This document shows, in pieces, positions 2,780 through 36,108 of a DNA stretch of 41,127 nt. The DNA comes from Candidatus Actinomarinales bacterium. Its GTDB lineage: Bacteria; Actinomycetota; Acidimicrobiia; Actinomarinales; Actinomarinaceae. The translations under genes were made by a program, and so were the position numbers. Under the pieces are notes generated by a model. That model was not told the origin of the DNA and made no database searches. It saw only the letters and a list, made by a program, of their open reading frames with translations. The stretch is from positions 1-41,127 of the forward strand of contig SGYT01000005.1 in the NCBI GenBank assembly GCA_004214055.1, written 5' to 3'. The first letter of the stretch is position 1; every line of letters begins with the position of its first letter.

Positions 2780-2799
2780 TTTGTGAATAATTTCACAAA
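2780..2799. promoter_or_regulatory. CRP/GlxR-like dyad 1 (phr side)
   Basis: TTTGTGAA and TTCACAAA are perfect 8-bp arms separated by 4 bp, which contains TGTGA-N6-TCACA, the textbook site of CRP-family regulators. It lies where the photolyase transcript would begin: a perfect TATAAT on the minus strand reads from 2808 to 2803. The minus strand of this dyad also reads TTATTCACA, which fits a DnaA-box consensus, but the symmetry favours a dimeric regulator. Confidence 0.6.
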
Positions 2800-2816
2800 C
2801 ATATTATATTTGTATT

Positions 2817-2844
2817 ATACATTGTGAATTATTTCACAATGTAT
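2817..2844. promoter_or_regulatory. CRP/GlxR-like dyad 2 (rhodopsin side)
   Basis: ATACATTGTGAA and TTCACAATGTAT are perfect 12-bp arms around TTAT. The core TGTGA-N2-TA-N2-TCACA also fits the consensus known for actinobacterial GlxR. Its centre is 41 bp from that of dyad 1, close to four helical turns, so the two would face the same side of the DNA. It overlaps a possible plus-strand minus-10 element (TATTAT, 2813-2818) for the rhodopsin gene, so binding here could block or tune that promoter. A third half-site, ATGTGAAA, sits at 2851-2858 just before the ribosome binding site. Confidence 0.65.
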
Positions 2845-2869
2845 TAAAGAATGTGAAAAGAGGAAAAAA

Positions 2870-3544
2870 ATGGAAGAGCTAACATATAGGCTTTTTATGG
2901 TTGGTACTGTGGGAATGCTTGCAGCTACTGTTTACCTATTAATGGCCTCAAGAGAAGTTGATGCTAAATACAGAAGAGGTGTTTACATATCTGCTCTTGT
3001 AACGGGTATCGCTTATTACCACTACAACAAAATGACTGCATCATATTTACTTAATCCAGGTGAATTTGATACAGGATTGAGATATGTTGACTGGGTATTA
3101 ACTGTACCGTTAATGTTCGTCGAAATTATTGCAATTACTTCCGTGGGGGCAGTTGCAACAAAGAAATTTAGAGATTGGGGCTTTGCCGGTCTTGTAATGA
3201 TAGGAGCTGGATATTTTGGAGAAATCTCTGAGGCATCATCAACCAACTACTGGATTGGTTTTGTCTTGGCAATGGCTGCATATATTTATCTAATGTTTCA
3301 ATTACAAAATGAAGGTGAAGGAATGTCAGGGGATGAGCTAGTTCAATTTAATAAAATTAAGAACTTAATATTTATTGGTTGGATAATCTATCCATTAGGC
3401 TATATTTCACCAGTTTTGGGATCAGATCTAGGAGCGCTTAGAGAGCTTCTTTATAACGTTGCCGATATTGTAAACAAAGTGGGTCTTGGAGTTTTGGTAC
3501 TTGGCTTAGCAAGAATTAAGTCAGGCGAAAAAATAAATTCCTAA
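2870..3544 (+). CDS. Proton-pumping rhodopsin (DTE type, green-tuned)
   Basis: Seven-helix retinal protein of 224 aa that should pump protons outward on illumination. Helix C carries Asp74, Thr78 and Glu85, the DTE triad of proteorhodopsin-type pumps (acceptor, Thr, donor). Met82 stands at the spectral tuning position, where Leu or Met gives green and Gln gives blue absorption. His51 in helix B matches the conserved His that pairs with the acceptor Asp. Lys203 in DIVNKVGLG is the Schiff-base lysine and WIIYPLGY is helix F. By eye, Phe131 aligns where carotenoid-binding rhodopsins have a Gly window, so an antenna is not expected, though this alignment is uncertain. GAGGAAAAAA precedes the ATG. 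No retinal synthesis gene is in view. Confidence 0.96.
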   Translation: MEELTYRLFMVGTVGMLAATVYLLMASREVDAKYRRGVYISALVTGIAYYHYNKMTASYLLNPGEFDTGLRYVDWVLTVPLMFVEIIAITSVGAVATKKFRDWGFAGLVMIGAGYFGEISEASSTNYWIGFVLAMAAYIYLMFQLQNEGEGMSGDELVQFNKIKNLIFIGWIIYPLGYISPVLGSDLGALRELLYNVADIVNKVGLGVLVLGLARIKSGEKINS

Positions 3545-3571: not shown

Positions 3572-3609
3572 GTTTAAACAGGTGACTAGCGATAGCTGCC
3601 TGTTTAAAC
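3572..3609 (+). terminator. Long stem-loop with GNRA tetraloop after the rhodopsin gene
   Basis: GTTTAAACAGG and CCTGTTTAAAC are perfect 11-bp arms. The stem continues inward through two G-U pairs and one A-C mismatch to CTA/TAG, closed by GCGA, giving about 17 pairs in all. No clear T tract follows (TAAAAAATTG). It may therefore be a 3' stabiliser or processing end rather than a classic intrinsic terminator. Confidence 0.55.
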
Positions 3610-12850: not shown

Positions 12851-14092
12851 TTAATCAATATCTCTATATATAAGTCTTGTTCCTCTTTTATTTAAAAAAT
12901 ATGCAAATATCCACTCAATCGCTACAAGTATCTTTGACCTATATCCAATTAGGTAAATTAAATGAATTAAGCTCCAGAATATCCAAGCTGTAAAGCCAGC
13001 CATTTCATAATTACCAAGAACACCTACCGCCTTAAATCTTCCTATCGTGGCCATCATTCCTTTGTCTGAATATTTAAATGGCCTTCTGTTTGATGATTGA
13101 ATGTTATTTTTTATATTATAAGCAACGTATCTTCCTTGTTGTATAGCAACAGGTGCTATTCCAGGTAGTGATTCTCCATTTTCTGTTTGAAAGTTTGCTG
13201 CATCACCAATAACATAAACGTCTTCATCTTCTTTTATAGAGCAATCTAAATTTACAACTGCTCGTCCTTCATTATCGTTTTCTGTTTGGAGGTGTTTTAT
13301 AAGGGAGCTTGCCTCATTTCCCGCTGCCCAGATAATATTATCTGCCTCTATTACGTCCTTGTCTGTAGTAACAAATGATTCTTTGATATTCTCAACTCTT
13401 TCTTTTGTTCTTATTTTTACTCCTAAATCATTTAAGTACTTGTGAGATTTCTTGGAAAGGGTTTCGCTATAGGCTGGAAGTATTTTTTCCCCAGCTTCAA
13501 GTAAATATATATTTGCATCCGAACTATTAAAATTTCTAAATTCTTTGGTCATATTTCTGTATGCAATTTCTGCAATTGAACCGGCTAGCTCTACCCCTGT
13601 TGGCCCACCTCCAATAATTACAAAATTAAGATATCTCTTTCTACTATTTTCATCTTTTTCATTTTCGGCTTTTTCAAATGCTTTTAATATTTTTTCTCTT
13701 ATGTCTAAAGCATCATTTATAACCTTTAATCCTTTTGCAAAATTTGACCATTCGTTATTTCCAAAAAATGAATAACTTGAGCCTGTGCTAACTATTAACT
13801 TATCGTAACTTAGCACCTGATCATTATCTAAAACAACCTCTTTTGTCTCTCGTTTTATTTCCTCTACCTCAGCAAGAATTGTTTTTACATTTTTGTCATT
13901 TTTAAATAAGTTTCTAAGTGGAACAGTAATGTCTGCTGGGGAAAGTACTGCTGTTGCTACTTGATATAGAAGTGGTTGAAATAGATGATGGTTAGTCTTA
14001 TCTATCAAGATAAAATCATTTTTACTTTTTCGTGCTTTTTTAAGAAAACTTAATCCGCCGAATCCACCACCAATTACTATAATTTTTTCCAT
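12851..14092 (-). CDS. ndh: Type II NADH dehydrogenase (NDH-2)
   Basis: A 413-aa FAD enzyme that passes electrons from NADH to the quinone pool without pumping protons. The first FAD motif is VIGGGFGGLSFLKKA (residues 5-19), the quinone/FAD segment HHLFQPLLYQVATAVLSPADI is diagnostic, and VIIGGGPTGVELAGSIAEIA is the NADH-binding fold. VYVIGDAANF is the last FAD motif. The C-terminus (WIFWSLIHLIYLIGY, then IEWIFAYF) is the usual amphipathic membrane anchor. An NDH-2 together with a rhodopsin and transhydrogenase would let the cell decouple redox balance from proton pumping (inference). Confidence 0.93.
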   Translation of the reverse strand: MEKIIVIGGGFGGLSFLKKARKSKNDFILIDKTNHHLFQPLLYQVATAVLSPADITVPLRNLFKNDKNVKTILAEVEEIKRETKEVVLDNDQVLSYDKLIVSTGSSYSFFGNNEWSNFAKGLKVINDALDIREKILKAFEKAENEKDENSRKRYLNFVIIGGGPTGVELAGSIAEIAYRNMTKEFRNFNSSDANIYLLEAGEKILPAYSETLSKKSHKYLNDLGVKIRTKERVENIKESFVTTDKDVIEADNIIWAAGNEASSLIKHLQTENDNEGRAVVNLDCSIKEDEDVYVIGDAANFQTENGESLPGIAPVAIQQGRYVAYNIKNNIQSSNRRPFKYSDKGMMATIGRFKAVGVLGNYEMAGFTAWIFWSLIHLIYLIGYRSKILVAIEWIFAYFLNKRGTRLIYRDID

Positions 14093-23484: not shown

Positions 23485-24087
23485 TTATTTTTGTTCGTCT
23501 TCTTCGTTTGAGATATTTTTAAAAGATTCTGAAAGTGTTTGCTCTTCAATGTCTCTTGGTACGTCTGGTCTTGGCATTTCTGGATAGGCAGTTTCATTCT
23601 TTTCTTTGTTTCTTTCATCTCTCATTTTTTTTACTGTTCTAGATAGTGTCATAAAGACTGTTTCTTTGTTTTCATCTTTTTCTTTTTTTGTTCTTCTTTG
23701 TTTTATGACGGTTTCTTCCCCATATGACTCTTCTAAAACAACAACCTCTATCCCGCCAACAAGGTCTGAAACCAAATTATAGAAAAAAGCACCTATTGTT
23801 GCTAAGGCCGTCTGCGTTAATAAATATACTGTTGCTAAAAACACAACTGAGGAAAAAAGTGCTTCTATGTTTCCAACAAGAGAAGCATTTTCATCTAAAA
23901 GCGCAAGCCTTCTTGCAATGTCTTCCAGGCCCTGAGGTACTCCTGCGTTGATTAATAAAACCCATAAAATACAAAAGCCCAAAACAATAGTAAGAGCGAC
24001 AACAAAATTTAATACGAAAGTAACTTTTAAAACCGTCCAAGGATCTACCTTTCTTATTATTCTTCTTACTCTGTTTACTCTTACCAT
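23485..24087 (-). CDS. DUF3566 transmembrane protein
   Basis: A 200-aa membrane protein of the DUF3566 family, which sits behind gyrA in most actinobacteria. RVRRIIRKVDPWTVLKVTFV is the family start, followed by one helix (FVVALTIVLGFCILWVLLI), a loop with GLEDIARRLALL, a second helix region (LFSSVVFLATVYLLTQTAL) and FYNLVSDLVGGIEVVV. The last 75 residues are a charged, probably disordered cytoplasmic tail. The function is unknown. The gene follows gyrA after four bases and is likely co-transcribed. Its presence strongly supports the actinobacterial assignment. Confidence 0.9.
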   Translation of the reverse strand: MVRVNRVRRIIRKVDPWTVLKVTFVLNFVVALTIVLGFCILWVLLINAGVPQGLEDIARRLALLDENASLVGNIEALFSSVVFLATVYLLTQTALATIGAFFYNLVSDLVGGIEVVVLEESYGEETVIKQRRTKKEKDENKETVFMTLSRTVKKMRDERNKEKNETAYPEMPRPDVPRDIEEQTLSESFKNISNEEDEQK

Positions 24088-24091
24088 TTTT

Positions 24092-26590
24092 TTAATCTTC
24101 TGTTTTTATTGGTATAAAAGCAGATATTTCCTCTTCCTTAGAGAGCTTCATAACTTTAACACCTTGGGCCGCTCTGCTCATTTGTTTTATTTGCTTTACT
24201 GCACATCTTATAGCGGTTCCTCCCGTACTCATAAGCATAACCTCTGTATCTTCATCTACAGACCTTGCGCCTATTAAATCTCCTTTGGTTTCTGTTACTT
24301 TTAGCGCTTTTACACCCATTCCTCCTCTTCCTGCTCTTCTAAACTCTTCTAGCTTTGTTCTCTTTCCATATCCCTTTGCAGTAATAAATAAAAGAGTTTC
24401 TTCTCTTGACGTAGAAGCACCAACAACTTTGTCTCCCTCTCTAAGCTTTATTCCCCTAACACCCATTGCTGTTCTACCTTGAGGTTTTAGGTTGGTTTCG
24501 TCAAACCTTATTGCCTGTCCTTTCTTTGAAACAAGTATTACGTCTTCTTTTCCAGATGTTGTTTTTACAGAAACAACCTTGTCTTCATCTTTGAGTTTTA
24601 TTGCTTGTAAAGATTTATAGTTTGAATCAAAATCTTTAAATGCTGACTTCTTAACCGTGCCTTTTTCAGTCATTATTAAAAGAAATTTCTCTGTTTCGTA
24701 GTCTCTTGTGTCAATTATTGCCTGAACCTTTTCGTCTTGACCCATTGAAAGAACGTTATGTATTAATGAACCTTTTGCTGTCCTTGTTGTTTTTGGAAGC
24801 TCGTGAGCTTTTGCTCTATATACTTTTCCTTGGTCTGTAAAGAACAGTAAATACGAGTGAACGGATGTTGATAAAAGATGTTCAATTACATCTTCGTCTG
24901 AAGAAGATGCTTTGACTCCTTTGCCCCCTCTTCCCTGTTTTTTATAAGAAGCGGAAGGAACAGACTTAACATAACCACCCGAAGAAACAGAAACAATTAT
25001 TTCTTCATCCTCAATAAGGTCTTCTATCTTGACCTCTCCTACGTCTGCTACTAGCCTTGATCTTCTTTCATCTCCAAATTTTTCAGTTATTGCTTCTAAC
25101 TCATCAATAAGAATTTTGTTTTGTTTTGCTCTGCTTTTTAGTATTGATGTAAGTTCTTTTATTATTTCTTTGAGTTCTTTTTTTTCTTCTTCTAGTTTTT
25201 CTTTTTCAAGAGCGGTTAGTCTTCGTAGGGGCATATCTAGTATGTGTGAAGCTTGTGTTTGAGATAATTTAAATTTCTTCATTAGAGATTTTCTTGCTAC
25301 GTCAACGTCTTTAGAAGCTTTAATTGTTTTTATAATTTGATCTATTTTGTTTAGAGCTAATAAAAGTCCTTCAACTATATGCAATCTCGATTTTGCTTTT
25401 TCAAGCCTGTGTTTTGTTCTTCTTTGAATAACATCTATCTGGTGTTTTATATAAAACCCTATAAGCTGTGGAACGGAGAGGACTTTTGGAACACCATCAA
25501 CGAGAGCAACTGAATTTACGGAGAACGAGTCTTGTAGTTGTGTTTGTTTAAATAATTGATTTAATACAACTTGAGGAACAGCGTCTCTTTTTAGTTCAAC
25601 GACAAGCCTTGTACCGTTTCTGTCACTGCTTTCATTTCTTAAGTCTGAAACTCCTGTTAGTTTTTTATCTTGTACTAAAGATGCTATTTTCTCCATTATT
25701 CGATCTATTGACGCCTGATATGGTAACTCCTTAACTACAATTGCAGATCTTCCTTTTCCTAGTTCTTCAACGTCGGCAACTGCTCTTAGTTTTATTGAGC
25801 CCCTTCCTTTTAATATTGCATCTTTTATTGTTGGGGTTTCAACGATTAATCCGCCGGTTGGAAAGTCTGGACCTTTAATTATCTTTAAGTAGTCGCGTGG
25901 TTTTGGGTCTTTTGTTTTTAATGTAAATTTAACTGCCTCGGTAATTTCTTGTAAGTTGTATGGTGGCATATTTGTCGCCATTGCTACAGCAATTCCTTCT
26001 GCTCCATTTATAAGTAGGTTTGGAAACCTTCCAGGTAGTACTTTTGGTTCTGTTGTTTCTCCAGAGTAATTTGGTTCAAAGTCAACAGTTTCCTCATCAA
26101 TCCCGTCAAGAAGCTGTGACGCCAATAAAGACATTCTAGATTCTGTATATCTCATTGCTGCTGGGGGGTCGTCTGGGGTTCCAAAGTTTCCTTGTGGCTC
26201 GATAAGCGGATATCTTGTACTGAAGTGTTGACCCAACCTTACAAGGGTTCCATAAATAGCTTCATTACCATGTGGGTGATAATTACCCATAACATCACCA
26301 ACAACTTTTGAGCATTTTCTAAATGGTCCAGTTGGTCTAATACCTGTCTCATACATTGAATAAAGAATTCTTCTTTGAACCGGCTTTAATCCGTCCTTTA
26401 CATCTGGAAGCGCTCTGGAAACAATAACCGACATTGCATAGTCTAGAAAAGATTTAGAAATTTCATCTTCTACAGCTATCGCTCCGTTTTGGACTACAGG
26501 TTTCTTTGCTACAGGTTTTTTTGCTACAGGTTTTTTTCTAGCTGTTTTCTTTGCTACAGGTTTTTTTCTAGCTGTTTTCTTTGCTGGCAT
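24092..26590 (-). CDS. gyrA: DNA gyrase subunit A with basic repeat N-terminal tail
   Basis: Cuts and rejoins DNA to introduce negative supercoils (832 aa). The active-site Tyr148 is in AAMRYTE, and the GyrA box QGRGGKG in the C-terminal pinwheel shows it is gyrase and not topoisomerase IV. The first 34 residues are an extra tail made of AKKTARKKPV repeats, encoded by a perfect 30-bp tandem duplication. In the quinolone-binding region HPHGNEAIYGT, Glu110 stands at E. coli Ser83 and Gly114 at Asp87; both residues that hold the water-metal bridge are lost, so low fluoroquinolone sensitivity is predicted. The ATG shares one base with the gyrB stop. Confidence 0.96.
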   Translation of the reverse strand: MPAKKTARKKPVAKKTARKKPVAKKPVAKKPVVQNGAIAVEDEISKSFLDYAMSVIVSRALPDVKDGLKPVQRRILYSMYETGIRPTGPFRKCSKVVGDVMGNYHPHGNEAIYGTLVRLGQHFSTRYPLIEPQGNFGTPDDPPAAMRYTESRMSLLASQLLDGIDEETVDFEPNYSGETTEPKVLPGRFPNLLINGAEGIAVAMATNMPPYNLQEITEAVKFTLKTKDPKPRDYLKIIKGPDFPTGGLIVETPTIKDAILKGRGSIKLRAVADVEELGKGRSAIVVKELPYQASIDRIMEKIASLVQDKKLTGVSDLRNESSDRNGTRLVVELKRDAVPQVVLNQLFKQTQLQDSFSVNSVALVDGVPKVLSVPQLIGFYIKHQIDVIQRRTKHRLEKAKSRLHIVEGLLLALNKIDQIIKTIKASKDVDVARKSLMKKFKLSQTQASHILDMPLRRLTALEKEKLEEEKKELKEIIKELTSILKSRAKQNKILIDELEAITEKFGDERRSRLVADVGEVKIEDLIEDEEIIVSVSSGGYVKSVPSASYKKQGRGGKGVKASSSDEDVIEHLLSTSVHSYLLFFTDQGKVYRAKAHELPKTTRTAKGSLIHNVLSMGQDEKVQAIIDTRDYETEKFLLIMTEKGTVKKSAFKDFDSNYKSLQAIKLKDEDKVVSVKTTSGKEDVILVSKKGQAIRFDETNLKPQGRTAMGVRGIKLREGDKVVGASTSREETLLFITAKGYGKRTKLEEFRRAGRGGMGVKALKVTETKGDLIGARSVDEDTEVMLMSTGGTAIRCAVKQIKQMSRAAQGVKVMKLSKEEEISAFIPIKTED
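26521..26580. repeat. Perfect 30-bp tandem duplication in gyrA 5' end
   Basis: Bases 26521-26550 and 26551-26580 are identical (TTGCTACAGGTTTTTTTCTA...). On the coding strand they give two copies of a ten-residue K/A/R/P unit, and partial copies continue to about 26495. Copy number may vary by slippage. Confidence 0.95.
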
Positions 26591-28512
26591 TATACGTCCA
26601 AAAATCTAACGTCTTTTGCGTTTTGTTCAATAAATGTTTTTCTCTTTGAAACATCGTTACCCATGAGAATCTCGAACATGTTTGCTGCTTTAGCTTCTGC
26701 TGCTTTTCCATCAGCAATACTGACCTTTATTAGGCTTCTTGTTTCTGGATTCATTGCTGTGTCCCACAGCTCCCCGGCGTTCATCTCTCCTAGTCCTTTA
26801 AACCTGCTTATATCAAATTTTTTATTTTTATTTTCTTTCTTAAACCTCTCTAGGGCTTGGTCGTCTTTAAGATAGTTTATCGATCCAGAAGATTTCGCTC
26901 TATAAAGAGGGGGTTCAGCAATCCAAACCTTGCCTTCTTTAATAAGCCCAGGCATAAATTTAAAGAAAAATGTTAATAATAGTGTTCTTATATGGGCTCC
27001 ATCAACGTCAGCATCTGTTAAAAGAATTATCTTGTCGTACCTTGATTCTTCGCCTTTGTATTCAGCTTTTATTCCTGTACCAATAGCTTTTATAAGAGAG
27101 CTTATTTCTTCATTCTGTAGTGCTCTGTTTTCTGTAACTTTTTGTACGTTAATGATCTTTCCTCTTATTGGTAATATTGCTTGTGTTCTGGATTCTCTAG
27201 CCTGCTTCGCTGGGCCTGCTGCAGAATCTCCCTCAACTATAAATAATTCACTTTCACTCGGATTTGTAGAGGAGCAGTCTGCAAGCTTACCTGGAAGCCC
27301 AGATGTTTCTAAAATGCTTTTTCTTTTTGTAAGTTCTCTTGCTTTTTTAGCACTCATTCTCGCTTTTGCTGCTACAGCACATCTTTCTACAATAGCTCTT
27401 CCTTCTTTTGTGTTTTTAGATAACCATTTTGGCAGTTCTTTGTTTACTAAAACCTGCACTTTTGACTTCATTTCTGTATTTCCAAGTTTTGTTTTTGTTT
27501 GACCTTCGAATTGTGGTTCTTTTACCCTAACTGAGATTACCCCTGTTATTCCTTCCCTTATGTCATCACCCGTTAGTGAGATGTCTGAGTGTAGGTTTCT
27601 TGATTTTGCAAAATCATTAATTGCTTTTGTTATGGCTGTTCGTAAGCCCTCTTCATGGGTGCCCCCTTCCAGTGTGTGGATGTTGTTTGCAAAACTTTTA
27701 ATATTTACATCATCTTCATTTTTCCACTGAAGAGCTACTTCAATTTCTGAATCTTTACTTTGGTCGGAAAAGGATATTGTTTTTTCATGAAGGACTTCAA
27801 AACCATCATTTAAATAATCAACAAAATCAACCAAACCGCCTTTGTATAAAAACTTATCTTTTGTTGCTGGTTTTACTCTGTTGTCAACAAGAACAATTTT
27901 TAGTCCTTTGTTTAAAAATGCTGTTTGTCTTAACCTTTCTGATACAACGTTGTATTCGAACCTTTGTGTTTCTTCAAAGATTTCTGGGTCTGCTAGAAAA
28001 TTTATTTTTGTTCCTGTCTTTTTTGTAGCTTTTCCTTTTTTAATTTTTGACACAGGTTTGCCGAGATCAAAGTTTTGATTCCAAACAAATCCGTCTCTTT
28101 GTACTTCAGCTTTAACAAAGACTGAAAGAGCATTAACTACCGATATACCAACACCATGAAGCCCACCACTAACGCTGTAAGCTTCTGATTCAAACTTTCC
28201 TCCAGCGTGTAGTGTTGTTAAAACAGTTGTAAGTGCTGATTCTTTTGTTTTCGGTCTTGGTTTTACGGGTATTCCGCTCCCGTTGTCTGTAACAGTAACT
28301 GATCCGTTCTTTTCAAGACTGACTTCAATTGAATTACATCGTCCCGCCATTGCTTCGTCTACAGAATTGTCCACCACTTCCCAAATTAGGTGATGTAAAC
28401 CGTTTGGACCTGTTGATCCTATATACATAGCAGGTCTTTTTCGAACTGCTTCAAGCCCTTCTAAGACTTTTATGTCTTTAGAATCATACTTTTTTGAATC
28501 TTTTTTTGGCAC
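26590..28512 (-). CDS. gyrB: DNA gyrase subunit B
   Basis: ATPase subunit of gyrase, 640 aa. The GHKL ATP site has YIGSTGPNGLHHLIWEVVDNSVDEAM (residues 30-55) and GGLHGVGISVVNAL. The Toprim domain carries EGDSAAG (427-433) and DADVDGAHIRTLL, which hold the metal ions for cleavage. NNIHTLEGGTHEEG is the transducer loop. The start is GTG with GGAGATCC just upstream. It overlaps gyrA by one base, ensuring balanced synthesis. recF, usual upstream in actinobacteria, is missing. Confidence 0.97.
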   Translation of the reverse strand: MPKKDSKKYDSKDIKVLEGLEAVRKRPAMYIGSTGPNGLHHLIWEVVDNSVDEAMAGRCNSIEVSLEKNGSVTVTDNGSGIPVKPRPKTKESALTTVLTTLHAGGKFESEAYSVSGGLHGVGISVVNALSVFVKAEVQRDGFVWNQNFDLGKPVSKIKKGKATKKTGTKINFLADPEIFEETQRFEYNVVSERLRQTAFLNKGLKIVLVDNRVKPATKDKFLYKGGLVDFVDYLNDGFEVLHEKTISFSDQSKDSEIEVALQWKNEDDVNIKSFANNIHTLEGGTHEEGLRTAITKAINDFAKSRNLHSDISLTGDDIREGITGVISVRVKEPQFEGQTKTKLGNTEMKSKVQVLVNKELPKWLSKNTKEGRAIVERCAVAAKARMSAKKARELTKRKSILETSGLPGKLADCSSTNPSESELFIVEGDSAAGPAKQARESRTQAILPIRGKIINVQKVTENRALQNEEISSLIKAIGTGIKAEYKGEESRYDKIILLTDADVDGAHIRTLLLTFFFKFMPGLIKEGKVWIAEPPLYRAKSSGSINYLKDDQALERFKKENKNKKFDISRFKGLGEMNAGELWDTAMNPETRSLIKVSIADGKAAEAKAANMFEILMGNDVSKRKTFIEQNAKDVRFLDV

Positions 28513-28587
28513 GGATCTCCTAAGATACGCTTCTTTTTATGTTTTTTACAGCCCTAGCTGAACTCTTATTTTAGCCGAAATCCGTTG

Positions 28588-28875
28588 TTATTGTTGGTTA
28601 TTTTCGATTTGAACGTCCAACAAATTTAGCTTTATTTTTGTTTTTTTTTCAATATCGATCAATATTTTTTGTTCCTCGAGTTTAATTGAGTCCATTGCTC
28701 TTTTCGAGGTTGTATAAAGTGTTGCAACCTCACCCACAACAGGACCTGGGGTTGTTTCTTCAGACCATAAAAATTTATTCTTATCAAAATAGCTCTTTAT
28801 TTTTTTAGATTTAGAAAAGTCTATTCCTAAGCTGTTGTTTTCAACATTAATTTTTTCAGGTTTTTTGTTTTTCAC
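28588..28875 (-). CDS. Short DUF721/DciA-like protein
   Basis: A 95-aa basic protein in the place where actinobacteria carry DUF721 (DciA, the ancestral loader of the replicative helicase). SEETTPGPVVGEVATLYTTSKR is reminiscent of the family's W-x-x-VVG-x-x-VA-x-H-T segment, and KLEEQKILIDIEKKTKIKLNLLDVQIEN of its C-terminal strands. It is only about half the usual length and quite divergent, so the call rests partly on position. The GTG start overlaps the dnaN stop by four bases. A 75-bp spacer without obvious features separates it from gyrB. Confidence 0.6.
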   Translation of the reverse strand: MKNKKPEKINVENNSLGIDFSKSKKIKSYFDKNKFLWSEETTPGPVVGEVATLYTTSKRAMDSIKLEEQKILIDIEKKTKIKLNLLDVQIENNQQ

Positions 28876-29987
28876 TGACTTGTTCTTACGGGCATTAATA
28901 AATATTTATAGTTTTCTACTTCTCCTTGAATAACAACTGGTTTTTCGTTGCCGGAAAATCTTATATAAACCGTTTCTCCGTCTAAAACTTCGATTCCTTG
29001 CATGAAATAATTTGGATTAAAAGACATCTCAAAACCAGAAAGGCTCTCAAGGTCAACCCCCAGAGTTTTTACAGCAACCTCTTCGTTTCCTCCGCCAATG
29101 TCTTTGTTAACTGTTGTTATCTTAAGGGTTTCGTTGTTTTCTAAAATAATTTTAACTGGAATAAAACCCTCAGCAACAACAGTTGCTCTGTCTAGGGATT
29201 CTAAAATTTCTGTTTTTTTAACCTCTATTGAGAACAAAGTCTCTTTTGGGAAAAGGTTTTCGTATTCTGGAAAACTTCCTTCAAGTTTCCTTAATGAGGC
29301 TGAAAATTTTTCATTATAGAAACAAATTTCTCTTTCGTTCGAGTTTATTTTTATTGTTTCGTCTGTGTCTTCAAAAACTCTTATTGTTTCGTTTAGTGCT
29401 CTATATGAAATTATACCTATATCTTTTATGGGAACTTCTGACAAACTGTGTGTTGCTAGCCTGTAGCTGTCTGTAGCAACTAGTTCTGTTTTGTTGTTTT
29501 TGTTATTAAAGTAAACCCCTGTTAAAACAGGTCTTCCTCCTTCTGGGGAACTTGCTATTCCTACTTTTTTAATTGACTCAAACAATTCTAAAGTTTCTAC
29601 TTCCTCTGTGTTCTCTTTTTTGTTTTCTTCAAGTATTGCTTCCGGGTATGTTTTTTCGTCTAGCTTCCTTAATTCAAAAGCCATCTTATTAATCTCTACC
29701 TTTAGTTCTGATCCTATGTCTGAAAACGTAGCTTCTCCTGTTGGTAGTTTCCTAACAATCTCTGACAAAACCCTTGCATTAACGAGTGTTTCGCCTTCCA
29801 CCTCCGTTTTGACTTCTGTTCTTGCTTTTAAAACAACATCTAAATCAGAACCGATAACCTCCAACACATCCCCTTTAGTTTTAAGATATAAACCCTGTAA
29901 AGAGGGTGTAGCGGGTCTCGGGTCTACAACCCTAGAAACAACGGAAACAACCTCTTTCAAGTCTTTTATTTTTATTTTAAATTTCAA
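28872..29987 (-). CDS. dnaN: DNA polymerase III beta sliding clamp
   Basis: Ring-shaped processivity clamp, 371 aa, the normal length. Three topologically equal domains are visible from PATPSLQGLYLKTKGDVLEV, through SSPEGGRPVLTGVYFN and TDSYRLA, to the C-terminal YKYLLMPVRTS that forms the partner-binding pocket. The start is TTG at 29987, preceded by AAGGAATTAAA; no ATG fits. It is separated from dnaA by 116 bp that hold palindromic repeats. Same operon direction as gyrB and gyrA. Confidence 0.96.
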   Translation of the reverse strand: MKFKIKIKDLKEVVSVVSRVVDPRPATPSLQGLYLKTKGDVLEVIGSDLDVVLKARTEVKTEVEGETLVNARVLSEIVRKLPTGEATFSDIGSELKVEINKMAFELRKLDEKTYPEAILEENKKENTEEVETLELFESIKKVGIASSPEGGRPVLTGVYFNNKNNKTELVATDSYRLATHSLSEVPIKDIGIISYRALNETIRVFEDTDETIKINSNEREICFYNEKFSASLRKLEGSFPEYENLFPKETLFSIEVKKTEILESLDRATVVAEGFIPVKIILENNETLKITTVNKDIGGGNEEVAVKTLGVDLESLSGFEMSFNPNYFMQGIEVLDGETVYIRFSGNEKPVVIQGEVENYKYLLMPVRTSQ

Positions 29988-30028
29988 TTTAATTCCTTAT
30001 AAGTTTAATAATAATAAAGGTGTTGAAA

Positions 30029-30041
30029 GTGTTTAAAACAC
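30029..30041. promoter_or_regulatory. Palindrome GTGTTT-A-AAACAC in dnaA-dnaN spacer
   Basis: Perfect 6-bp arms around one base. It contains GTGTTTAAAAC, which recurs exactly at 30071-30081, 42 bp away. May be an operator for dnaN or a nonstandard initiator site. Confidence 0.45.
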
Positions 30042-30071
30042 AACAAAAGAACCCTTTTAAATGAAAAACAG

Positions 30072-30089
30072 TGTTTAAAACTTTAAACA
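30072..30089. promoter_or_regulatory. Palindrome TGTTTAAA-AC-TTTAAACA in dnaA-dnaN spacer
   Basis: Perfect 8-bp arms with a 2-bp centre, sharing the GTGTTTAAAAC word with the site 42 bp away (four helical turns). No canonical DnaA box is seen in this spacer. Confidence 0.45.
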
Positions 30090-30103
30090 TATAAAACCAA
30101 CAA

Positions 30104-31417
30104 CTAAGAAGATCCAACTAAATTTATTTTATTGTCAAAAATGTTCATTTCTTTCAACAACAAAGTTGATTCTTTTGACCTTTTCAAACAAGATAAAACT
30201 GTTGAATGAGATCGTCCACCGAGAAAAATACCGATTTGAACAAGAGAAAGCTCCGTATGTTTTCTAAGCAAAGCAACGCAAAGATTTCGTGCCTCAGCAA
30301 CACCTGCGCTTCTGTTTTTAGAAACTATTAGTTTTTTATCTACCTGGTAAACGCCAGACACGTAATCCAAAATAAATTCCGGTGTCAAGAAAGAAACAAG
30401 GTTCTTTTTTGAATCTCCCAAAATATTTTTGATATATTCAGAGTTTCCAAGACCTGTTTGTTTATTGATAACCAAGTTGTTGATTATTCCGTTTATATCT
30501 CTAAAGCTATCAACCTCAACCTCAACAAGCTCTAGAATTTCACCTTTTGTTAACAAAACATCTTTAAAACTTTCATTTTTAAGTTTCAACATTTCTTCAA
30601 ACATTTTCTTATCTGGTTTTCCAATATCTGTAACCAAGCCGTTCAAAACTCTTGAAATAAGTCGTTCTGGAAAACCCAAAAGACTTTGTGGTTTTTGGTC
30701 TGAAACAAGAACAACGGCTTTTTCGTTGTTTAAAAAATAATTTATTGTATGAAAAAGCTCTTCAGAAACACCTTTTTTACCAACAAAAAATTGAATATCA
30801 TCAATTAAAAGAACATCTACCGATCTAATTTTATTTTTAAACAAATCAATATCCTGGTTCTTTATACCGCTTACATAAGACTCCAGAAAAGACTCGGAAT
30901 CTATATAGTAAGAAGAAAAACAAGACTCTTCCATTGTTTTCAACAGGTGGGTCTTACCAACACCTGGCTCACCATGAATAAAAAGAGGGTTAAACCTTTT
31001 TCCTGGATCTAAAACAACATTTTTTGCTGCTGTAACAGCAAGGTTGTTGGGAACACCAACCAAAAGATCATTAAAAACAGAAAGATTTGGAACTGGCTTA
31101 TCCTTTTTTACTTTTCCATCCACAGACCTTTCCTCAGAAGGTTCAGCGGCAGAAGGGGTGAAGGAATTTTCATTTTTAAGTTTTCTATCTAAGATAAAAA
31201 CACAGTCTTCAGAACCAGAAACGTCTTTGTAAACGCTTTTAATTTTCTTATAAAGCCTTTTTTCAATAGAGCTTTTAACAAACTCAGAATTTACAAATAA
31301 ATTTAGCTCTTTTTCTTTGTTTGTGCGAAAATCAACTTGATCCAACCAATACATGTCTGTCTTTGACAACTGCTCTTTTAGTATTTTTTCTTTAAAATCT
31401 ACAAGTTCTTGCTTCAT
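30104..31417 (-). CDS. dnaA: Chromosomal replication initiator DnaA, divergent
   Basis: Binds oriC and opens it for the helicase (437 aa). Domain I (about 1-80) is followed by a charged linker, then the AAA+ core with Walker A GEPGVGKT (149-156), Walker B LLIDDIQFF and the arginine-finger region ERLISRVLNGL. Domain IV has VAEARNLCVALLRKHTELSL and GGRSHSTV (400-407). Most DnaA proteins have GGRDHTTV here, so the usual Asp is Ser. Since these residues touch the DnaA box, the recognition sequence may be altered. It is transcribed away from oriC, with rpmH divergent on the other side. Confidence 0.95.
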   Translation of the reverse strand: MKQELVDFKEKILKEQLSKTDMYWLDQVDFRTNKEKELNLFVNSEFVKSSIEKRLYKKIKSVYKDVSGSEDCVFILDRKLKNENSFTPSAAEPSEERSVDGKVKKDKPVPNLSVFNDLLVGVPNNLAVTAAKNVVLDPGKRFNPLFIHGEPGVGKTHLLKTMEESCFSSYYIDSESFLESYVSGIKNQDIDLFKNKIRSVDVLLIDDIQFFVGKKGVSEELFHTINYFLNNEKAVVLVSDQKPQSLLGFPERLISRVLNGLVTDIGKPDKKMFEEMLKLKNESFKDVLLTKGEILELVEVEVDSFRDINGIINNLVINKQTGLGNSEYIKNILGDSKKNLVSFLTPEFILDYVSGVYQVDKKLIVSKNRSAGVAEARNLCVALLRKHTELSLVQIGIFLGGRSHSTVLSCLKRSKESTLLLKEMNIFDNKINLVGSS

Positions 31418-31689
31418 GCTTATAGTAATTTAATTTATTAGTAAAAAAAAACATAGAGTGCTAAAAACAAACTAAACAAAAAAAGAAAAAGTAATTTTAG
31501 AAAAAAAGCCTAAATTACTTAAGTTTTATTTGAAACAATCAACAAAAACAAGACCAAAAAAAATAGATTACAAAAGCTAGTTAATATACTTTTCGCGAAG
31601 CTAATTTATTTTTACCAAACACTCAAATAAATAATTTATTTACTTTGTTTAATTAATTATTTCATTTATTGTGAATACACAGGTAAAAA
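31418..31689. other. Presumed oriC region between dnaA and rpmH
   Basis: A 272-bp, extremely AT-rich spacer without genes, where transcription diverges (dnaA leftward, rpmH rightward) and gene strand bias switches. It holds a bulged hairpin AAGTAATTTTAG/CTAAATTACTT (31489-31520), the palindrome TTCGCGAA (near 31593) and AAATAAAT-A-ATTTATTT (31625-31641), fit for unwinding. Only one DnaA-box-like word is seen, GTATTCACA on the minus strand (near 31670-31678), one mismatch from TTATNCACA. The promoters of dnaA and rpmH must also be here. Confidence 0.7.
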
Positions 31690-31824
31690 ATGAAAAGAAC
31701 TTATCAACCTAGTAACAGAAAAAGAAGCAGAAAACACGGTTTTAGAACAAGAATGCGCACCAGGGCGGGACGTGAAGTCCTTAAAAGACGAAGAAGCAAG
31801 GGTCGCAAAGTTCTTTCTGCATAA
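31690..31824 (+). CDS. rpmH: 50S ribosomal protein L34
   Basis: Absent from the track because it has only 44 residues. [20 protein letters not shown] is the universal L34 start and the end [12 protein letters not shown] is also typical. Very basic, as needed to bind 23S rRNA. The gene stands at its usual place beside oriC, ahead of rnpA, whose TTG start follows after four bases. AGGTAAAAA precedes the ATG. Confidence 0.97.
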
Positions 31825-31828
31825 CTAG

Positions 31829-32152
31829 TTGGTAAATTTTACTACTTTTAAAAATAGCAAACATTTTTTAGACCTGAAAAGAGAAGAAAACTGTTTAACT
31901 GAACAAGGCTTAAGAGTTTACATAAAAGACAGCGAAAAAGAGCTGTCAAGGCTGGGGATAAGCATCCCCAAATCAGAAGCAAACGCAGTTAAGCGAAACA
32001 AATTTAGAAGAAAGATTAAAGAGGTAGTTAGAGGTTTAGAGGCAAAAAAAAGTTTTGATATATATATTGTTGGAACAAAAAAAGGTAGCAACCTTAAATA
32101 TAAAGAACTAAATAACATTATTGCATCTCACCCAAGACTAAAAAAGAATTGA
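31829..32152 (+). CDS. rnpA: Ribonuclease P protein component
   Basis: Protein cofactor of RNase P, which trims tRNA 5' leaders (107 aa). The signature NAVKRNKFRRKIKEVVR is the RNR motif that binds the RNA subunit and the pre-tRNA leader. DIYIVGTKKGSNLKYKEL is the usual C-terminal strand and helix. The start is TTG at 31829. Its stop overlaps the TTG start of yidD (TTGA). Confidence 0.92.
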   Translation: MVNFTTFKNSKHFLDLKREENCLTEQGLRVYIKDSEKELSRLGISIPKSEANAVKRNKFRRKIKEVVRGLEAKKSFDIYIVGTKKGSNLKYKELNNIIASHPRLKKN

Positions 32153-32361
32153 AGATTAGAAGTTTAATATTTTTAATATTTAGATCAATGCTAAGTTTTT
32201 TTGGCTTTGGTCAAGGAAACTGCATGTATTACCCAACCTGTTCTTCTGTTCTAAGCGAAGAAGTAAACGAAAATGGCTATATTAGAGCTTTACCTTTGGT
32301 TTTTCACAGGGTTTATATTTGTAATCCGATATATAGAAAATTTGGTAAAAATTGGCAATAA
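32149..32361 (+). CDS. yidD: Membrane protein insertion efficiency factor YidD
   Basis: A 70-aa protein that helps YidC insert membrane proteins. GNCMYYPTCSSVLSEEVNENG carries the conserved YPTCS motif, and ALPLVFHRVYICNPIY matches the family's R-x-x-R-C-x-P region, with Val-Tyr-Ile before the Cys. The TTG start overlaps the rnpA stop by four bases and its end overlaps yidC by ten, so the four genes are translated together. Confidence 0.9.
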   Translation: MKIRSLIFLIFRSMLSFFGFGQGNCMYYPTCSSVLSEEVNENGYIRALPLVFHRVYICNPIYRKFGKNWQ

Positions 32362-33185
32362 TAGAACCTTTCGCAGAAGCTATAGGATTCCTGCTTTCCT
32401 ATATATACGATTTTGGTGTCTCTTACGGCATATCAATAGTTGTATTGACAATAATTATTAACATTATAATTTTTCCTCTTACTTTAAGACAAACAAAATC
32501 TACAAAAAGAATGCAAGACGCCCAACCAGAACTTAAAAGGTTGCAAAAGCAATACAAAGACGACAAAGAAGAAATGAACAAAAAGGTCGCAGAATACTAT
32601 AAAGAAAAAGGAATAAACCCCCTTGGTTGCATTGTTCCGCTTTTAGTTCAAATGCCAGTTTGGTTTGCACTATTTAGGGTTTTAAGAGAGCCCCTTTTAT
32701 TTATACCAAAAGAAGCGAGCCTTTATTCGGCACTTGAAGATCCTCTAAGTGTTTTATATTTCAACATGGATTTACAAATTCCAGCATCGGCTATTAGTAA
32801 CTGGATGGAGAGGTTTCCATACATTATTTTAATATTATTAGTTGTAGGAACAGCACTAATACAACAAAACCAACTAACAAAGAAGCAAGGAAAGTCAAAC
32901 AACGCCCAACAACAACAAATGCAAATGATTGGAAAGGTTATGCCAATATTTTTTGGTTTTATATCCTGGACCCTTCCGTCTGGGTTGGTTGTTTATTTCT
33001 TAACGGGGAATATTTTTAGAATTGGACAACAAGCATTAATAGTTAAGCTTGAGGAAAATCAATCTGACAAAAGCAGTAAAGAAAACGGGAAAAAGAAAGA
33101 AAAAGATCTGGAAAACGAAGAAAACAATGAAGGACCTATAGTCAACGATTCTCGTAAAAAAAGAAAAAAAAGAAGGAGAAAATAA
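32352..33185 (+). CDS. yidC: YidC/Oxa1 membrane protein insertase
   Basis: Inserts and folds inner-membrane proteins (277 aa, the short type of gram-positive bacteria without the large periplasmic domain). Five membrane segments are seen, starting with YGISIVVLTIIINIIIFPLT, then the cytoplasmic hairpin KSTKRMQDAQPELKRLQKQY, NPLGCIVPLLVQMPVWFALF, and SWTLPSGLVVYFLTGNIF near the end. The C-terminal 45 residues are very basic and bind ribosomes. The start is TTG at 32352. The stop overlaps the ATG of jag (TAATG). Confidence 0.94.
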   Translation: MAIIEPFAEAIGFLLSYIYDFGVSYGISIVVLTIIINIIIFPLTLRQTKSTKRMQDAQPELKRLQKQYKDDKEEMNKKVAEYYKEKGINPLGCIVPLLVQMPVWFALFRVLREPLLFIPKEASLYSALEDPLSVLYFNMDLQIPASAISNWMERFPYIILILLVVGTALIQQNQLTKKQGKSNNAQQQQMQMIGKVMPIFFGFISWTLPSGLVVYFLTGNIFRIGQQALIVKLEENQSDKSSKENGKKKEKDLENEENNEGPIVNDSRKKRKKRRRK

Positions 33186-33937
33186 TGCCTAATAAATGGG
33201 TAGAGGTTGAAGCAAAAACAATAGATGATGCAATCAAGGCAGGCCTAAAAGAATTAGAACTCGATGATGCAACCGAGGCTGACATAAATATATTAAGAGA
33301 ACCCGAAGGAGGGGTTTTTGGTGTTGGAGGAACAAAGGCTCTAGTTAGAATCTCTGTTAGAAGCGGTTTTAAAAACAAAAACGGAAGAAGATACAAACAA
33401 AGAAACAGAAATGAAAGACCACAAAACCGAAGAGAAAAATTCGACACAAGAAAGCCGCGAGTAGAGGCTGATCCCAAAGAACAGTTAGAAGTTTCAATAT
33501 CCTTTTTAGAAGGATTAATAAAATCATTCGGCCTAAAGGGAGTAGTAAGTGGCGAGGTGAATGAAAGAAACCTTGTAGTAAAGGTTTCCGGAGAACAAAC
33601 AGAGGCTCTTGTTGGCGAAAAGGGAAATATTATTCGCTCTTTACACGAACTTACAAGAACGGTTGTCCAACGAAAAACCGGTGCCGGAACAAGGTTAAGG
33701 TTAGATGTAGCTGAATACGCGGAAAAAAGAAAAGAAGCACTAACAATTTATGCAGAAAGATTAACAAATCAAATACTTGAAGACAAGCAAGAGGTTATGT
33801 TAGAGCCGATGAACTCGGTTGACAGAAAAACACTACATGATGCGGTTTCTGAAATAAAAGGTATAAGGTCTTATTCTGAAGGAAGAGAACCCTATAGGTC
33901 TGTTGTTTTTGCTCCAAGCGAACAAGAAGAAGAATGA
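33185..33937 (+). CDS. jag: Jag/KhpB RNA-binding protein (SpoIIIJ-associated)
   Basis: A 250-aa RNA-binding protein found next to yidC across gram-positive bacteria. Residues 3-55 are the Jag_N domain (WVEVEAKTIDDAIKAGLKEL, then GGVFGVGGTKA). A basic linker of about 35 residues leads to the KH domain (VSGEQTEALVGEKGNIIRSL) and the R3H domain (LEPMNSVDRKTLHDAVSEIKG and YRSVVFAP). KhpB with KhpA controls cell division and wall growth in other species. It overlaps rsmG by four bases. Confidence 0.92.
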   Translation: MPNKWVEVEAKTIDDAIKAGLKELELDDATEADINILREPEGGVFGVGGTKALVRISVRSGFKNKNGRRYKQRNRNERPQNRREKFDTRKPRVEADPKEQLEVSISFLEGLIKSFGLKGVVSGEVNERNLVVKVSGEQTEALVGEKGNIIRSLHELTRTVVQRKTGAGTRLRLDVAEYAEKRKEALTIYAERLTNQILEDKQEVMLEPMNSVDRKTLHDAVSEIKGIRSYSEGREPYRSVVFAPSEQEEE

Positions 33938-34557
33938 CATATAATCCCCAAATTCCAAAGTGGGGAGAAAAATATCTAGAGGAAAAAAAAGAAAAACTTG
34001 TTAATTATCATAAGTGGTTATCTACTACAGGAAATAAGACGGGATTAATAAGTCAAAAAACAGACCAATATATTTGGGATGAATTTATAGTTCATTCCTT
34101 ATATTTTTATAAAATAATTGAAGATCTTGGAGTAGAAAAAAGTAGTATTTTTGATTTGGGAACTGGAGGGGGAATTCCGGGGGTACCAATATCTATTGTA
34201 AGCAGCACAAAAGTAGTACTAGTTGATAATAAAAAAAGCAGAATATTTGAACTAGATAGGCTAATTAAAATACTAAAGATAGAAGGTGTTGCAGCTAAAG
34301 AAAAAAACGCAATTGAGCTTATAAAAACTAAGGAAAACGCTATTTTTACACTACGTTGCTATCTTTCCACCTCAAGTTTGATTAAAGAAACAAAAAAAAC
34401 ACTAAAGAAATCAAAAAAATTAAATAAAAATATATATCTTGTCTCTTCCAATAAAAAAAATAATATCAAAACAGATAAAATGTTTCACGTGAAACAAGAA
34501 AAATTTCTTATCAATAAAAACGACTATCGATTTATTGATGTTATAACAAGTATGTGA
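33934..34557 (+). CDS. rsmG: 16S rRNA (guanine527-N7)-methyltransferase RsmG
   Basis: Methylates G527 of 16S rRNA with SAM (207 aa). The SAM loop is FDLGTGGGIPGVPISIV (73-89), and WDEFIVHSLYF is the N-terminal helix that enters the fold. The gene also carries a perfect parS site: MFHVKQ (183-188) is the translation of that palindrome, so codon choice there is constrained by DNA binding. The overlap with parA is four bases (GTGA). Confidence 0.92.
   Translation: MTYNPQIPKWGEKYLEEKKEKLVNYHKWLSTTGNKTGLISQKTDQYIWDEFIVHSLYFYKIIEDLGVEKSSIFDLGTGGGIPGVPISIVSSTKVVLVDNKKSRIFELDRLIKILKIEGVAAKEKNAIELIKTKENAIFTLRCYLSTSSLIKETKKTLKKSKKLNKNIYLVSSNKKNNIKTDKMFHVKQEKFLINKNDYRFIDVITSM
34481..34496. promoter_or_regulatory. 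parS: parS centromere site inside rsmG
   Basis: TGTTTCACGTGAAACA is a perfect 16-bp palindrome identical to the parS consensus. It lies 58 bp before the parA start and 3 kb from oriC. ParB loads here and spreads along DNA, so this is the nucleation point for origin segregation. Confidence 0.97.
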
Positions 34558-35324
34558 AAACAATTTCAATAATTTGTCAAAAAGGAGGAGTAGGAAAAAC
34601 AACAGCAGTTGTTAACTTATCCACTATTTTTTCAAAAAAAGGTTATAGAACATTAATTATTGATCTAGATCCCCAGGGAAACGTCTCAACATATCTAAAT
34701 TTCGATAAAAATACCAAAAATGTTACAAGTAGTATTGATTTATTAAGCGGTGTAACAGAAATTTTTACAGGCGAATTAAGCGAAAATCTTTCAATTATTC
34801 CTTCAAATAAAGAAATAGCCAGATATAACGATGAAAAAATCATTGGAGGCGCAAAAATTAGTAAGTTGAAAAAATATGGTCTTTTTAATGAGTTTGACTT
34901 TGTTTTCATAGACACTCCGCCAACCATGAGTTCCTTGGTTCAGGAAGGAATTGCTGCTTCAGACTATTACTTAATACCAACAAAGCCGGAATTTTTAGCT
35001 ATTGAAGGAGTAGCTCAAGCCATGAGTTTTGCTAAGACAACATTAAAAAACATACCAAACGTAAATGCTATATTTTTAGGGGTTTTACTAAATCAGGTTG
35101 AAACAAGAAGAGCTAGTTATGAAGAGTTTTTATCAGAATTAGAATATTTACTTGGAGACAGACTCTTCAAGACTAAAATTTCTCATCTCACAGAAATTGC
35201 AGACAGCCCTTTTTATGGTAAAACTGTGATAGATTTTAATAAGGAGAGTAAGGCAAGAATTCAATTTAACAAACTGGCAGAAGAAATAATAGAAAGAGTT
35301 GATAAAAATGAAGAGATCACTTAG
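34554..35324 (+). CDS. parA: Chromosome partitioning ATPase ParA (Soj)
   Basis: Walker-type ATPase, 256 aa, that moves ParB-bound origins along the nucleoid. The deviant Walker A is KGGVGKTT (10-17), followed by IIDLDPQGNVSTYL. FVFIDTPPTMSSL is Walker B and LIPTKPEFLAIEGV the switch region. GTG start overlaps the rsmG stop. The C-terminal 17 bp overlap parB, so both are made at a fixed ratio. Confidence 0.95.
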   Translation: MKTISIICQKGGVGKTTAVVNLSTIFSKKGYRTLIIDLDPQGNVSTYLNFDKNTKNVTSSIDLLSGVTEIFTGELSENLSIIPSNKEIARYNDEKIIGGAKISKLKKYGLFNEFDFVFIDTPPTMSSLVQEGIAASDYYLIPTKPEFLAIEGVAQAMSFAKTTLKNIPNVNAIFLGVLLNQVETRRASYEEFLSELEYLLGDRLFKTKISHLTEIADSPFYGKTVIDFNKESKARIQFNKLAEEIIERVDKNEEIT

Positions 35325-36108
35325 CTCGCTAATAACAGATACAAACGTAAGGGAGTTCAAGGCTATCGAGATAGAAATATCTCAAATAAAAAAAAGCGAC
35401 ACACAAGCACGTACAAATTTTGATAAAGGTAAGTTGCTAGAGCTCAGCCAGTCAATAGTTAAAAATGGAATTTTACAACCACTAATAGTTCAAGAAGCTG
35501 GAGAAAACCAATATAGATTGATTGCTGGCGAGAGAAGGTTGAGAGCAGCAAAAGAAGCCGGATTAAAAGCTGTTCCGTGTTTAATAAAAGACGTTAGCTC
35601 AAGAGAAGCTGCAGTAATTGGCTTGGTTGAGAATGTTCAAAGAAAGCAGCTTAAAACAACAGAAGAAGCAGCAGGATATAAAAAACTATTAGAAGAATAT
35701 AATCTTGAAACTAAAGATATAGCAGAGCTAGTTGGAAAAAGCAGATCCTACGTTTCAAACTTACTTAGATTATCAAAGTTAAGTACAGAAGTATACGGCG
35801 CTCTTGAAGAAGGACTTGTTACAATGGGTCAAGTTAAACCAATAATAAACCTAGAAGAAAATCAGCAAAACGAAATCCTTACTGAAATTTTAAGCTTAAA
35901 GCTTTCTAGTAGACAAGTAGAAGAAAGAGTAAGAAAAATAGCAAACCCCTCAGATAAAGTTTCCGAAAAGCTGCTGCACTATAAAAACTTTTTTGAAAAT
36001 AAAACAGGTTCGAAAGTAGATATAAAAACAAACAAGAACAACTTTAAAGTAACATTAAACTTTCGCACAGAGGATGATCTTAATGTTTTTATTAATAGTT
36101 TTAAGTAG
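35308..36108 (+). CDS. parB: Chromosome partitioning protein ParB (CTPase)
   Basis: The track start (TTG, 35299) is three codons too early; ATG at 35308 gives MKRSLSSLI. ParB clamps onto DNA at parS and slides using CTP (266 aa). The N-terminal domain has LIAGERRLRAAKEAGL (CTP-binding box) and LVENVQRKQLKTTEEA, followed by the helix-turn-helix DIAELVGKSRSYVSNLLRLS that reads parS. The C-terminal about 50 residues form the dimer domain. Its last eight bases overlap the convergent cwlM-like gene. Confidence 0.95.
   Translation: MKRSLSSLITDTNVREFKAIEIEISQIKKSDTQARTNFDKGKLLELSQSIVKNGILQPLIVQEAGENQYRLIAGERRLRAAKEAGLKAVPCLIKDVSSREAAVIGLVENVQRKQLKTTEEAAGYKKLLEEYNLETKDIAELVGKSRSYVSNLLRLSKLSTEVYGALEEGLVTMGQVKPIINLEENQQNEILTEILSLKLSSRQVEERVRKIANPSDKVSEKLLHYKNFFENKTGSKVDIKTNKNNFKVTLNFRTEDDLNVFINSFK

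Follow-up and report, generated by a model that had tools for sequence, protein, structure and literature searches.

Rex from S. aureus controls genes of anaerobic fermentation and nitrate respiration in a non-phototroph and recognizes the consensus TTGTGAAW4TTCACAA, a motif for which the paper also cites TGTGAn6TCACA as the consensus in earlier use (PMC2883068). Its binding is enhanced by NAD+, reduced by NADH, and strongly impaired when the length of the spacer is altered (PMC2883068). An actinobacterial Rex has been characterized in S. avermitilis, for which the available text of PMC5355995 describes direct repression of nuo and of the WhiB gene wblE, as well as footprints that extend from −42 to −16 at nuoA1 and from −3 to +25 at cydA1. 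The targets named in that text also include cyd, atp, rex-hem, hppA, and ndh2, and a rhodopsin is not mentioned in it.

The regulation of proton-pumping rhodopsins has been approached from a different side. In Vibrio campbellii, proteorhodopsin is tied to the state of the cell, and not to light alone, through RpoS (PMC3380642). For Ca. Actinomarinales, the part of the genome study PMC7771536 that is available reports the same rhodopsin as the one considered here, its pairing with a photolyase (in tandem in G1–G3 and on the opposite strand in G4), and two nuo operons; operators or a regulator of the rhodopsin are not reported in that part. No paper linking Rex to a rhodopsin gene was found in the literature searched, which was a limited collection.

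The window analyzed here is a stretch of 41,127 nucleotides from a Candidatus Actinomarinales genome. It harbors a proton-pumping rhodopsin that belongs to the marine actinobacterial clade (MACR; 2870–3544, + strand; PF01036, E = 6.6e-35; closest solved structure 5JSI, E = 2.4e-94) and, divergent from it, a class II-like DNA photolyase (1285–2748, − strand; TIGR00591 phr2, E = 9e-103, below the curated cut-off). The organism belongs to Candidatus Actinomarina, and its rhodopsin is 96% and ~71% identical to those of named relatives. A strong 12-bp stem hairpin without a proper T run (3572–3609, −18.3 kcal/mol, z −3.5) lies just past the rhodopsin and is a possible terminator. On the other side, a gene for the transhydrogenase beta subunit (pntB, 55–1266) converges on the photolyase and is also found near the gene pair in L004. 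Members of the transhydrogenase family can spend proton-motive force to move hydride from NADH to NADP+; as an idea, illumination might allow the enzyme of which pntB encodes a part to complete a feedback loop. Further along the window, the gene at 12851–14092 (− strand) is by its sequence a probable type II NADH dehydrogenase, with no Rex operator motif (ROP) within 200 bp, and gyrA, gyrB, dnaN, dnaA, and parA/parB-like genes, also assigned by the look of their sequences, probably mark 23485–36108 as a replication-origin region.

The 121-bp spacer between photolyase and rhodopsin contains two perfect TGTGA-N6-TCACA dyads, TGTGAATAATTTCACA (2782–2797) and TGTGAATTATTTCACA (2823–2838), as the original prediction described them. 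They are the only matches in the window, even when one mismatch is allowed, and their centers are 41 bp apart, or ~3.9 helical turns. The full repeats exceed the cores first recognized, such that both dyads are perfect 18-bp repeats of the form TTGTGAA-W4-TTCACAA and agree with the Rex consensus at 14 of 14 specified bases, with a W4 spacer. The first candidate operator, ROP1 (2781–2798, no strand), reads TTGTGAA-TAAT-TTCACAA and is identical to the 18-bp consensus of the S. aureus Rex regulon (PMC2883068). The second, ROP2 (2822–2839, no strand), reads TTGTGAA-TTAT-TTCACAA and is nested in a longer perfect dyad, TACATTGTGAA/TTCACAATGTA.

On the basis of base composition, perfect 18-mers are expected 0.010 times per 747-kb assembly and 1.4e-6 times per spacer. 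The genome scan that had been proposed as a check finds three in the assembly, two in the rhodopsin spacer and one upstream of nuoA. The bare CRP core is expected 0.77 times per genome; therefore, the significance of the sites comes from the extended motif. Because counts of the two-mismatch motif are near background (13 vs 6 for the control in G000; 17 vs 17 in G037), interpretation outside the rhodopsin promoters is restricted to sites with zero or one mismatch. A third half-site, TGTGAA (2852–2857, + strand), does adjoin the ribosome-binding region of the rhodopsin as predicted, yet a role as an operator is not supported, since it is kept only in the three-genome lineage of the window (L012–L014), with an AAAGGAG region elsewhere instead.

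The divergent −10 elements that the dyads were said to flank exist as consensus matches. The predicted photolyase promoter, TTCACA-17-TATAAT (2759–2787, − strand), matches the consensus at 11 of 12 positions and employs the left arm of ROP1 as its −35; its spacing is also visible in the L013 and L014 sequences. The predicted rhodopsin promoter, TTGTGA-18-TATATT, matches at 9 of 12 positions. Its −35, TTGTGA, would occupy 2781–2786, and its −10, TATATT (2805–2810, + strand; a consensus match only), begins 7 nt past the right arm of ROP1 at a position that is kept across lineages as TATATT, TACATT, or TAAAAT. From these promoter scan positions, it follows that ROP1 overlaps the predicted −35 elements of both genes and the spacer of the rhodopsin promoter, while ROP2 lies just beyond the predicted start. 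Counted from a rhodopsin start placed by means of the −10, ROP1 would span roughly −36 to −19 and ROP2 roughly +6 to +23. Rex operators are expected within a promoter or shortly past it, which is where the two dyads lie relative to the predicted start site, and the S. avermitilis operators described in the available text of PMC5355995 likewise lie over the −35 and spacer or just past the start. The dyads look like genuine operators located in both promoters. DNA looping between them, which the original prediction had considered, was rejected: in most relatives only one of the sites is good, and the distance between sites is variable. It is also unnecessary, because a steric block suffices to account for the layout.

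A protein to read such sites is encoded in the same genome. The rex gene (G000:C1, about 16.0–16.6 kb) specifies a product that scores 263 bits against NCBIfam NF003992 (cut-off 226), and its best solved structure is T. maritima Rex (PDB 5ZZ5, E = 5e-44). Rex is encoded in 38 of 42 Actinomarina genomes; it was not found in the other four, all drafts, one of which is 90% complete. Twelve DNA-contact residues have been named in T. maritima Rex (PMC8836258). Nine of these, including Arg48, Arg60, and Gly61, are invariant in 31 Actinomarina Rex sequences, and at the remaining contact positions Lys49 is replaced by Arg, Lys43 by Asn, and Glu34 is variable. The GVGNLG motif, the mark of NAD(H) binding, is present.

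Companion operators place the motif at canonical Rex targets, namely nuo and WhiB. A perfect ROP adjoins rex in all 30 rex loci fetched, ~1.5 kb from the gene, and in the loci in which genes were read (L001, L050, L053, and L188) it lies between a geranylgeranyl-reductase-family gene and nuoA. The nuo operon behind it in G041 is of the complete nuoA-N type with the NADH-oxidizing subunits NuoE, F, and G. The second nuo operon is reported to be EFG-less, with a proposed use of F420, in the available part of PMC7771536; neither this operon nor the nearby heliorhodopsin has a ROP in the two loci compared (L188 and L189). Additional perfect ROPs occur upstream of a WhiB gene and of a small-protein/CopZ-like/copper-ATPase operon. 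As far as the available text of PMC5355995 describes it, the S. avermitilis regulon is similar in its operator, TTGTGAANNNNTTCACAA, in its nuo and WhiB-family targets, and in being governed by an actinobacterial Rex. In contrast to the targets listed there, Actinomarina apparently adds a light-driven proton pump. What can be read in the genomes themselves is the sequence, position, and conservation of the operators, the presence of rex, the residues with which its product would contact DNA, and the operators at the other targets.

The first gene of the copper-ATPase operon (L155:735–929, − strand) encodes a 64-aa protein with no Pfam match, and the operator word of this operon, TGTGAATATATTCACA, recurs in many genomes. 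A 505-aa ORF that combines PNPOx_N and UbiA domains (L157:331–1848, − strand) and is followed by a UbiE-like methyltransferase shares a one-mismatch ROP, TTGTGCATAATTTCACAA (L156:1574–1591), with an ABC transporter on the other side of the operator, divergent from it.

The two dyads are very probably Rex operators, at which Rex would keep rhodopsin transcription repressed as long as NADH/NAD+ is low, with high NADH releasing the rhodopsin together with nuo. Binding, repression, and the NADH switch at the Actinomarina operators are proposed by analogy with the characterized Rex proteins. Rex in its ligand-free form or with NAD+ would bind ROP1 and ROP2 and block RNA polymerase at the rhodopsin promoter; in the lineage of the window, Rex bound at ROP1 would also block the divergent photolyase promoter. 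Upon a rise in NADH/NAD+, NADH-bound Rex would close and leave the DNA, allowing the rhodopsin to be transcribed alongside the nuo genes of complex I and the remaining members of the regulon. The proposal that energy state, rather than light alone, governs the rhodopsin is thus borne out to the extent that the sites, as Rex operator motifs, point that way. This likens the locus to the RpoS-dependent proteorhodopsin of V. campbellii, in which a proton-pumping rhodopsin also follows the state of the cell; the difference is that the latter is driven by a positive stress/stationary-phase sigma factor and not by a redox-responsive repressor that acts at defined promoter operators (PMC3380642).

Of the joint control of both light-related genes by the same sites, the part that concerns the rhodopsin is likely, and the part that concerns the photolyase is plausible only in the lineage of the window, judging from the arrangement of the genes. 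Because the photolyase is divergent in this lineage only and stands in tandem in every other locus in which both genes were found, in agreement with PMC7771536 for G1–G3, its control by Rex would be lineage-specific. Elsewhere, the photolyase lies upstream in tandem and lacks an operator of its own in five loci, where the 200 bp preceding it contain no ROP.

Alignment of the region upstream of the rhodopsin across relatives, a further check suggested at the outset, gives a divided answer. A rhodopsin-promoter ROP (at most 2 mismatches of 14) is found in 21 of 32 genomes, distributed over three lineages with rhodopsins ~67–72% identical to that of the window. Both ROPs are perfect in all three genomes of the window's lineage, while the second lineage retains the upstream site and the third retains the downstream site. 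Ten genomes that form one clade (L030–L039) carry perfect half-sites, TGTGAA-CGT-TTCACA, with a spacer of 3 bp, and in a single genome, L025, no site at the rhodopsin is clear. The 3-bp-spacer clade has good support and branches from within the genomes that keep the downstream site with a 4-bp spacer. Rex control is probably weakened in this clade, because an altered spacer length strongly impairs binding by S. aureus Rex. Beyond the genus, 33 non-Actinomarina rhodopsins of the class have no convincing ROP upstream (the best, L137, has two mismatches), nor do 30 rhodopsin loci of the phylum (four or more mismatches); thus, rhodopsin ROPs look specific to the genus Actinomarina as sampled.

It is likely that the rhodopsin of this widespread marine lineage of photoheterotrophs joined the Rex regulon beside the NADH-type complex I, such that both pumps are switched by NADH/NAD+, and that one clade has loosened this control by the loss of a single base from the spacer. 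The same distribution could be taken to mean that Rex matters chiefly at nuo and that the rhodopsin sites are relics under loss, given that the 3-bp-spacer clade is nested among 4-bp lineages, one genome is site-less, and the majority of genomes retain just one of the two sites. This is improbable, however, as both sites are perfect in every genome of the window's lineage, and three lineages have retained sites at constant positions in the promoter, in genomes whose intergenic distances have a median of 2 bp according to the available part of PMC7771536.

Even less probable is a different regulator, for example a light-responsive repressor, that reads the rhodopsin dyads while their half-site letters match Rex by chance. 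One clade does keep the half-sites at a 3-bp spacing, at which Rex should bind poorly, but the same perfect 18-mer adjoins rex in each of the 30 loci and occurs at typical Rex targets (nuo and WhiB), and identifiable two-component systems are reportedly absent from the group (PMC7771536, available part).

The original prediction had assigned the dyads to a cAMP-responsive protein of the CRP/GlxR type governing both genes, and TGTGA-N6-TCACA is indeed also the core of the CRP consensus. This core is nonetheless common to the Rex motif, and Rex sites resemble CRP sites by their nature because TGTGAn6TCACA was the earlier Rex-motif consensus; beyond the core, the longer arms TTGTGAA/TTCACAA correspond to Rex. 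The cNMP-binding domain PF00027, the ligand domain of CRP, FNR, and GlxR, is present in none of the 42 Actinomarina genomes, with controls including C. glutamicum positive, and class III adenylate cyclase is likewise found in none of the 42, which speaks against cAMP control. Matches to HTH_Crp_2 are partial, covering part of the 70-position profile, and the single match looked at in detail proved to be an iron repressor of the DtxR type. A CRP/FNR/GlxR regulator was therefore rejected; the lack of any CRP-family regulator is the outcome that the original prediction had named as refuting it, and within the limits of these genomes this reading, of very low probability, is excluded.

Assignment of the dyads to Rex bears on how marine bacteria decide when to make their rhodopsins. 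A Rex operator would supply a defined sensor (NADH/NAD+), a defined protein, and a defined target on the DNA for a lineage that is widespread, uncultured, and otherwise sparsely regulated. The proposal can be tested in vitro without culturing the organism, with the 3-bp-spacer clade serving as a natural control. One may speculate that an NADH-rich cell builds its redox-driven and light-driven proton pumps together. If Rex control is true, the rhodopsin would be made at high NADH with complex I, the opposite of a simple induction by starvation.
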